Origin: Sycobia sp. Sy_11
Taxonomy: Eukaryota > Arthropoda > Insecta > Hymenoptera > Epichrysomallidae
Assembly: GCA_018907035.1 (NCBI GenBank)
Contig: JACCIC010000003.1
Span: 3,308,501 to 3,372,500 of the forward strand
Reading direction: 5' to 3'
DNA: 64,000 bases
The translations under genes and the position numbers were made by a program. The notes under the pieces are model-generated. The model did no database searches, was not told the DNA's origin, and saw only the letters and a program-made list of their open reading frames with translations. Each line of letters starts with the position of its first letter. Positions within the stretch are counted from its first letter, which is position 1. This document shows, one piece after another, positions 5,232 through 8,400 of the stretch.

Positions 5232-5427
5232 ATGCGGCCAAGATCGATCGGCGAAATGACGGCGGACAGCTGCGTCTTCCTGACGGGCATCACCGGTTTC
5301 GTGGGCGGGCTGCCTCCTCGAGAGGATCTTGAGACTGGAGCCCGGCCCGTCGCGCATCCTCGTCCTCGTGCGCGAGAAGCACGGGCTCGATCCGCAGAGC
5401 AGGGTGGAGAAGCTGCTCAAGTCGCCC
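5232..5427 (+). CDS. FAR gene A exon 1
   Basis: Codes residues 1-65: a short N-terminus, the Rossmann motif TGITGFVGG, then after the frame break the helix LLLERILR and the conserved block ending LLKSP. The donor at 5428 reads GTGAGT and the intron phase is 0. One surplus C in the CTGCCTC stretch at 5310-5316 shifts the frame; reading on in the +1 frame restores FAR homology at once. The exon is very GC-rich, with C or G in nearly all third positions. Confidence 0.85.
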
Positions 5428-8400
5428 GTGAGTGCGAGATGGCCCTGGCGATTTTTCTACATAATATGTGTGTGCGCGTGTGTGCGTGTCTATCCCGCCA
5501 ATCTATCCGGCAATCGGAAAACCTGGTGTATTTGTTTATACGCGCGTGCGCGCGTAAAAGTGCATGAAGTAATACTTAAGCGTGTTAAGTAATGTCGGGT
5601 AAGCGGTTCTCGGGTCGTTTTTAAAATTACATTGTGCAATTACATACGGATCGAGCGGTATAAACGATATTTTTCATTGGGCTACACGCTCGTCTGATGG
5701 TTGTTTTTCTTCATTATTTGAAGATTTTTAATTGTATCACCTCGTTCCCCCCTTGCTTTGCTTGATAATATTCTGATATGAAATACCCAATATGAAACAG
5801 CTATAAGTACCCTTCAAGTCATCATAAGAAGCCTGTATAGCTATCGCGAGCATTAATTTAAACTATCTATTAAATACGTTACTCGTACGTCGGATATTAG
5901 AAAAAAGTTTTATTATTTTCAAAATATTTTTATTTCAATTATTGCACGGTTATTCCTACTCGTTTCTCAAATCATATTTTTTCGATAACTTTTTTAAAAT
6001 AAAAGTTACAAGAAATTAACTTTTATTTAATAGTTATTTAAGAGTGAACAAATTTTAACTCTAATTTAGGGTTTTTTCGAATTTTGAATAGTTCTGAGAT
6101 ATTCAATCTCAATTTTTTATTGATAAATATGTCCTGAAGAAATTCAAATTTTTAAACACCAATACTACACTGAAATGAATAATTCTTAATAAAAAGAGTT
6201 GTTAAATATTTCTAAGAAATATTTTTTTCTCAATCCTTTCAAATAAATAAATTGTTATCTATAAGGGCAGTTCTTTTCTAAACGTACGTCATTAAATTTA
6301 ATCGAAAGGAATGATTAACGTTCCGAATGAAGGATCTGATCGTGTAATAACCATAGCACCGGAAATTTCTGGAAAGTGTCAATCGTTTCAGTAAACGTTT
6401 GTTAGAAACTACATTAAAGGCTAAACTACATTTTTTCTTCTCTATGCTTAAAATAATCTCTGAGTTTGCATTGAATAGCTTTTCAATATGTTGTCCATGA
6501 TCACAATTTTACCGGTTACAAAACATTCAAACAAAAATTACAATAAAACTTGATAATGTATATTAGATTTTCTTCAATATCATTTCCGTAATGCAATTTT
6601 CTTAAATATAAAATTTTCAAATAAAAGATTTTAGCAAAGCTTGAATAACATTTAATTTGAACTAGAGGTGAGTTACGTGCGACAATTAAATGTAATTTAC
6701 AGCTGTTTGTAATTAAAAGTTGGGTAATTTTTATATTGGAAAATAAGAACCTACTTTAATATTTTTTCGATAGGTACTTATATTCTATTAATCGGCTTTT
6801 AAGATTAAGTTTTTTAACGATTAAATCTGTAACATTAAAGGCATAATTAAGGGATATTCGGTTGCCAGAAAAAGTTAATGATAATTACGAATGAATAATT
6901 GATCTTAAACGAGCAGTTTAACAAGCATAAGAATAATCAATTATGCAAACAACATTTAACGAAGATCGACAGATTGGCTAATGACTTTTTATAACTTTTA
7001 AATACATTATAATCAATCCCTTTTATCCTCTTCATTATTGAATCAAAAACAACCCTCCAGCATATCCATTTTAAATTATGTTGTTCAATTCTCTTCAATA
7101 TGCAAATTTCCATTATAATAGTCCCATCATTACCAATGCAAATTTCGCAAGGAATGATTTTTTTTTACCGATTTCCAGAAAACCGAGCAAAGATATTTTT
7201 AAATTTGCAAATTTTTATCAATTTGATAGTTGTTATTCATTATTATTATTATTATTATTATTGTTTTTTGAACATTTTTTCTACTAATTATTTAATATTA
7301 CCATAAAATATATAACACTAGTAATGCTGTATAATAAACATTAAAATTATTGAATATTAATTTTCTGGTAGAAATATTATTAAACTGAATTAAAAAACAA
7401 AATGACTGCACGAAAACTATTAACATTAATTTCATCTAGAAAATAGAATATTCAAAATTAGCTGACATCTTACTTTTTTATAATTCTGGATTTATATTAT
7501 TACATTATAGAAATATAATTATAATAAATACTTTTTTTTAAATACACGTTTTATGATTACATCAGTGTGACCTCTATCCGCGAAGATAAACAAAACATAA
7601 ACATATATACAACTTTCCGCCCCGTCATTATTATGCCGCATTATTAAATCTTACACACACACACACACAATGGAAAATCTCATTGACAATCTTATTGGTT
7701 TTTATTTTCTTTTTTGTTTGTTTTTTTTTGTCAACGTTTCGCTCGAAGCTCTTCTCGACCGTGCCGCAGCACAAGCTGAAGCTGGTGCAGGCCATCAGGG
7801 GCGACGTCGGCAGCGACTCGCCGGACCTCGGGCTCCGCGAGGCCGACCTGGGCCTGCCTCGTCGAGTCCTGCACCCACGTCCTCCACGCGGCGGCCTTCA
7901 TATCGTTCGCCGCCGAGCTCGACATCGCGATCAAGATCAATTTGCGGGGCAGCCGGGCCGTACTGGGACTGGCGCGGAAAATGAAGCGGCTGAGGTCGAT
8001 GGTGCACGTGTCGACGGCCTACGTCAACTGTTACGCCGGCACCGAGAACAGCACGTTCGAGGAGAGGCTGTCGCCGGTCGAGGTCGATCCCATCGACGTA
8101 CTCGAGGCGGTTCGCATTTACTTTTTTTTCACCCTCTATATGCCTATATCCATTATGAGCTTTCTTTCATTGCTATCGTTCTTTCTGTTGTTATTGTTGT
8201 TGTTGTACATATATATATATATATGTTACACACACATACACTGACATTCCCGAGCATACTCTGTATTAACTTCACTTCATATAATGATTTGGCCTTAATA
8301 ATTCCACTTCCGCCAACTGTACATCAATCAAATTGATATACAAATCGTTCTTATAATATATTTTAACAATTAATATAATATAATTATGATACCAGTTAGA

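Follow-up and report, generated by a model that had tools for sequence, protein, structure and literature searches.

Insect fatty acyl-CoA reductases (FARs) of the CG5065-like group combine an NAD_binding_4 domain (PF07993) with a Sterile domain (PF03015). According to passages of PMC8081667, short indels from long-read consensus calling are the commonest errors before polishing and yield frameshift errors. Regarding individual platforms, excerpts of PMC4719071 describe Illumina insertion errors as increasing at extreme GC and PacBio errors as genuinely random, and in the excerpted text of PMC8486125 nanopore reading of homopolymers longer than 2 is poorer for C/G than for A/T, homopolymers shorter than 5 are mostly correct, and lengths are mostly underestimated. 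Indels that are compensated by the ribosome are, in the sections of PMC5009743 that treat them, mostly mitochondrial, including those of Polyrhachis ants, where a +1 switch takes place with peptidyl-tRNA-Gly at the insert sites; a slow A-site codon is said there to weigh more in +1 than in -1 shifting. Here, we analyzed a window of 64,000 nucleotides from Sycobia sp. Sy_11, in which an initial annotation had claimed two +1 frame breaks in one gene. Judged by its predicted protein, this gene (gene A, six exons, 5232-32356) is a hymenopteran FAR. The features are listed in Table 1.

Table 1. Exons of gene A, zones that hold the surplus bases, and the second FAR gene, in window coordinates
Feature	Position	Strand	Evidence and remarks
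Gene A exon 1	5232..5427	+	Two-frame tblastn with P0001, exon model; NAD(P)-binding motif TGITGFVG; holds frame break 1
Surplus base 1 zone (GGGCGGGCTGCC)	5303..5314	+	Profile: 785.1 bits at 5306-5310 versus 782.0 at 5312-5313; homology favours 5306-5310
Gene A exon 2	7749..8109	+	Exon model, tblastn; holds frame break 2; weak donor GCG/gttcgc
Surplus base 2 zone	7847..7858	+	Profile: positions tried, 7847 to 7857, score 786.0 to 783.5 bits
Gene A exon 3	17307..17560	+	Exon model, PF07993 8.2e-15; YTFTK (YxxxK-type) catalytic motif; unbroken
Gene A exon 4	27223..27555	+	Exon model, tblastn; unbroken
Gene A exon 5	29502..29759	+	Exon model, PF03015 1.6e-17 (Sterile domain); unbroken
Gene A exon 6	32218..32356	+	Exon model, tblastn; hydrophobic C-terminus and stop; unbroken
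Gene B, second FAR (CG8306-like), seven exons	41170..47000	+	Homology; six exons joined, seventh read from frame; intact

The coding exons of gene A comprise 1,541 bases as assembled and encode 512 residues plus a stop once two surplus bases are omitted. PF07993 and PF03015 follow each other in the expected order, with all three matches above cut-off, on 7858-8109 (PF07993, 6.6e-16), exon 3 and exon 5. On 5314-5427, PF07993 reached 18.1 bits, below its cut-off of 20.1, and it gave no match on 5232-5312 or 7749-7856. The protein contains TGITGFVG in exon 1 and YTFTK in exon 3, which we take to be the Rossmann TGxxGxxG and the catalytic YxxxK motifs, respectively. Its ten best matches (best 120 of 1,332 proteins) are all hymenopteran with identities of 47-64%; among the matches listed, the closest is that of Trichomalopsis sarcophagae (64%), followed by that of Phymastichus coffea (54%), and none is near-identical. 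A profile built from eight of these ten orthologues retrieved those ten again, with E up to 1e-160, and nothing further among the matches listed. Gene A thus shares its domain order, both motifs, its length and its identity to ten hymenopteran orthologues with the CG5065-like FARs, and differs from them in that its assembled DNA breaks frame twice, each time by a net +1. Among the matches listed, the orthologue group includes no bee, no ant and no protein named Nasonia, Ceratosolen, Copidosoma or Eretmocerus, all four of which are named among the listed matches of gene B; the matches are 90% clusters, so missing taxa are weak evidence, and the patchy distribution perhaps reflects repeated loss or an effect of clustering and listing. 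The remainder of the gene and its splice sites had been annotated as intact, and all five introns are indeed GT-AG, with the caveat that the exon 2 donor (8104-8116) is weaker than the other donors (gtgagt, gtgagt, gtaagt and gtaaga).

Both annotated frame breaks were found, and exons 1 and 2 each carry one net surplus base. With the Trichomalopsis FAR (P0001) as tblastn query, residues 1-26 aligned in one frame of exon 1, ending at 5309, and residues 25-71 in the +1 frame, starting at 5305, and in exon 2 residues 62-101 aligned in one frame to 7856 and residue 102 onward in the +1 frame from 7858, which confirms that FAR homology resumes in the +1 frame at both sites. Break 1 is by itself enough to cut off the FAR homology after 26 residues; read without a shift, the zero frame gives a product of only 143 amino acids, its stop falling 116 codons past site 1. 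The two 16-mers reported at the sites, GGGCTGCCTCCTCGAG (5307-5322) and GGCCTGCCTCGTCGAG (7851-7866), are present and match at 14 of 16 positions as had been stated; the start given for the second was correct, and that of the first, given as 5305, had to be moved to 5307. Splicing was rejected as a cure, since exons of 196 and 361 bases as assembled leave exon 3 out of frame with exon 2 either in or out. Likewise, reasoning by hand, we found no internal intron of usual size in exon 1 that spares the conserved residues.

The surplus bases were placed by scoring against a profile of the ten gene A orthologues. At site 1, the three chalcid orthologues found (P0001, P0002 and P0009) read V-G-G-C-(L/V)-L-E-R, and the window reads VGGCLLER (GGC TGC CTC CTC GAG) if the surplus base lies at 5306-5310 and VGGLLLER if it lies after CTG. 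The surplus C had originally been put after CTG, giving L-L-L-E; at site 1 this is disfavored by the chalcid Cys and by the 3.1 bits gained at 5306-5310, before CTG. Considering that a gap of 3.1 bits is modest, the sequence may instead have undergone a Cys-to-Leu change at site 1. The positions tried at site 2 span only 2.5 bits, so the surplus base there cannot be placed. Three registers are common to both sites: an extra G in the GGG run (5307-5309 and 7850-7852) loses 1.1 bits at site 2 relative to placement after CTG, a C after the glycine codon (5310 and 7853) loses 1.6 bits at site 2, and a C after CTG at both sites loses the 3.1 bits at site 1. In the restored frame, CCT accounts for 0 of 16 Pro codons in exons 1-3 and for 1 of 28 in the whole of gene A, so the simplest view is that the surplus base created both CCT codons at the sites. 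This rarity parallels the scarcity of T-ending codons in such GC-rich exons.

The likeness between the two sites, which have GGSCTGCCTCSTCGAG in common, is local. The 14/16 pair is unique among 304,590 non-overlapping 16-mer pairs of exons 1-3, and two break points drawn at random reach 14 matches, at any offset, in only 3 of 4,000 trials. The 16-base figure flatters the likeness, because the length of 16 was set by the finding itself, after the fact. Once the surplus bases are taken out in the same register, the pair ranks first among the 304,590 at k=15 and ties for the top score with two to three other pairs at k=16, and at k=20 and k=24 there are 250-321 pairs that are equal or better; in different registers (5309 in the G run and 7857 after CTG), 142 pairs score as well at k=15. 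The likeness is therefore register-dependent as well as local, given that it fades at longer windows and with different registers. GC-rich codon usage alone was considered as a source of chance likeness and is insufficient at 15-16 bases, since the pair then ranks first or within the top 4 of about 304,000, although the pair is unremarkable at 20-24 bases. The initial argument from the shared context against two unrelated mutations is thus supported by the random break points and limited at longer windows. We take the shared context as a hint of a common cause, which counts against two unrelated mutations. Exon 1 has the unextended motif, CTGCTC, without an extra C once on the plus strand (5413-5418) and once on the minus strand (5397-5402), so the motif is not hit every time. 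In the window, CTGCCTC occurs 6 times against 1.02 expected, and four of these lie outside the given coding exons.

To judge the state of gene A apart from the breaks, we compared its restored protein with the ten orthologues. All ten annotated hymenopteran orthologues are continuous across both sites in their gene models. The remaining coding exons of gene A contain no further disabling change, the exon 2 donor being merely weak, and the homologous frame is free of stops in every segment except for the gene's own stop in exon 6; in the GC-rich exons this says little, because the third frame there is also stop-free. GC3 of exons 1-3 is 0.85-1.00 on either side of each break. In leave-one-out comparison with the other ten proteins, gene A keeps 102 of 104 invariant residues, within the range of its relatives (0.879-1.000). 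None of ten relative-rate tests, in which the comparison was with P0001 or P0002 and five outgroups were used, exceeded chi2 3.84 (maximum 2.51). The private changes of gene A exceed those of P0001 with all five outgroups (50/43, 58/44, 47/44, 46/40 and 44/35), none significantly, and are mixed in direction against P0002. A tree of all 11 proteins gives gene A an end branch of 0.35, equal to the median, and P0001 one of 0.21. Since no decay is seen by residue, rate or tree measures, gene A was normally constrained until very recently, or is so still.

These results bear on the reading that the extra bases are real and mark either a pseudogene of very recent origin or a null allele in the sequenced individual. 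Single-base insertions in G/C runs are an ordinary kind of mutation, which we counted in favor of recent loss. The truncated zero-frame product, the weak exon 2 donor, and the consistent though insignificant excess of private changes and longer end branch relative to Trichomalopsis point the same way. The gene is possibly dispensable, as its orthologue group lacks bees, ants and four chalcid genera, with the weakness that attaches to listed matches of 90% clusters, and predicted FAR pseudogenes in bumble bees are mentioned in passages of PMC6361591. Against this stand the 1,541 coding bases without other disabling change, invariant residues lost no more than in intact relatives, a rate that is not significantly raised, and the retained GC3 bias of exons 1-3. 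Contexts so similar are also rare at two random break points. A very recent loss would pass the same tests of relaxed constraint. We rank recent loss second, as unlikely but a serious candidate.

The explanation that we favor, with a probability of roughly 0.62, is that each surplus base is a single-base insertion left uncorrected in the assembly consensus, in GC-rich exons of a functional FAR. It is favored because gene A is otherwise healthy, its orthologues are unbroken, and both insertions sit in GC-rich exons. The GC content of the two broken exons is 64-71%, whereas the 2-kb blocks of the window range from 20 to 38%, except for 4001-6000 at 47%; exons 4-6 (0.52-0.58 GC) and gene B (20-34% GC in 2-kb windows) have no breaks. 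The two insertions would lie within or beside short G/C runs. The reads would lack the extra bases, the context or poor correction of GC-rich exons would have produced the same error twice, and the animal would make an unbroken 512-residue enzyme that reduces fatty acyl-CoA. The shared context fits a context-dependent error, and the published short consensus indels, Illumina insertions at extreme GC and poorly read nanopore C/G runs count in favor of this explanation too. On the other hand, exon 3 is equally GC-rich (0.67) yet unbroken, CTGCTC in exon 1 is spared at two places, and the local rate would be high, with two insertions in 557 bases versus none in the remaining 984 coding bases of gene A or in the 1,524 coding bases of gene B. 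Among the platforms, random PacBio errors, as characterized in the excerpts of PMC4719071, would not account for the shared context, and runs of two to three bases in gene A would have been called too long, opposite to the nanopore underestimation described in those of PMC8486125. Considering also that short nanopore homopolymers are mostly right, no one platform is clearly implicated. The initial ranking of sequencing error as the simplest reading agrees with the evidence.

Another kind of assembly artefact, for example a consensus that mixes two alleles or paralogues, would account for two changes close together in a gene that shows no decay elsewhere. Stops or odd residues would then be expected too, and none was seen in gene A. 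FAR homology in the window is confined to genes A and B (120 FAR queries, E up to 1e-3), and gene B belongs to another FAR type, so we give a mixed consensus very little credence. Gene B served as a control, its coding exons being free of breaks; among the matches listed its closest is Nasonia (75%), and none is near-identical. By the matches of both genes, the window is placed in a chalcid wasp. Elsewhere in the window, ten other ORFs chosen for Pfam gave no family at E up to 0.01, Rfam gave no match at its gathering threshold, and ARAGORN found no tRNA. A stretch at 44960-45010 (CTGATGAGGAACCGTAGTGAGCTCGAAACGTTGG) presumably resembles a hammerhead ribozyme core, which Rfam does not report at the gathering threshold, and another at 41765-41840 (GACCGGGATTTGAACCCGG) appears to us tRNA-like and short, perhaps part of a SINE, and is tRNA-negative in ARAGORN. 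The intron between exons 4 and 5 of gene A gave the impression, on reading, of a possible mariner-like transposase remnant on the minus strand (27860-28780). A long CA repeat lies at about 31135-31235, long TA/CA repeats recur in the parts read, and the window is without any N.

Ribosomal recoding was considered with respect to both registers. It would involve a +1 move of the ribosome at both sites, for instance by skipping a C after the glycine codon at GG(G/C)-C-TGC, so that a full-length FAR is made. The presence of GGSCTGCCTCSTCGAG at both sites is consistent with such a move, the skip at GGG-C-TGC and GGC-C-TGC would retain the conserved Cys at site 1 at the stated cost at site 2, the coding sequence 3' of the sites is constrained, and the switch with peptidyl-tRNA-Gly in Polyrhachis offers a precedent. 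However, that precedent is mitochondrial, mostly with AGY next according to the same passages of PMC5009743, and none of the ten annotated hymenopteran gene models is broken, whereas programmed +1 frameshifting would be expected to show a break conserved among orthologues. The zero-frame A site holds no stop and is, depending on the register, CTG or CCT. In the glycine register it is CTG, the commonest Leu codon of gene A (24 uses), although a slow A site matters for +1 shifting in those passages. In the originally proposed register, the rare zero-frame CCT might be slow, and TGC, the +1 codon, would be a poor re-pairing partner for a tRNA-Leu that reads CTG. Slippage at CTG CCT C, as first proposed, found no support, considering that homology at site 1 favors a change before CTG and that the orthologues are annotated as unbroken. 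Folds of 80 bases from each 16-mer start were ordinary (z -1.38 and -0.44, plain folds only), and losses would multiply with two shifts per mRNA. Our literature search on programmed ribosomal frameshifting in combination with insect, antizyme and nuclear genes retrieved nothing, by which we do not claim absence from print. Altogether, recoding at the two sites seems highly improbable. Its most specific form is just as doubtful, namely that the extra bases are real and fixed in the wasp lineage and that a sequence-specific +1 slip at GG(G/C)-C-TGC-CTC would correct both in one spliced nuclear mRNA, as in ant mitochondria.

The distinction has consequences for annotation and biology. Should the breaks prove to be errors, they would illustrate how a pseudogene or recoding can be mimicked by two insertions left uncorrected in GC-rich exons, and gene finders would cut short a genuine FAR. 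Should the bases prove real, a member of a family that produces pheromone and wax alcohols would be in the first stages of being lost; a much less likely alternative is that an animal corrects a nuclear gene by frameshifting.

Compared with the known systems, gene A shares the +1 direction with the programmed frameshifting of Ty1/EST3 and antizyme, but those systems have a slow or stop A-site codon, deep conservation and in some cases 3' stimulators, as outlined in passages of PMC5009743, and the annotated orthologues of gene A show no conserved break. With the corrective +1 shifting of Polyrhachis mitochondria, as described in the same source excerpts, it has in common a single-base insert, a hymenopteran gene and a glycine codon that can be placed in the P site, the last of which may be regarded as the main positive parallel. 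The ant sites are mitochondrial and mostly have AGY next, in contrast with gene A, which is nuclear and spliced, has CTG next and has annotated orthologues that are unbroken. With the frameshifting indels of long-read consensus calling, as portrayed in the available portion of PMC8081667, gene A shares single-base changes in an otherwise intact gene, and it differs from them in that its two hits fall in very similar 16-mers.
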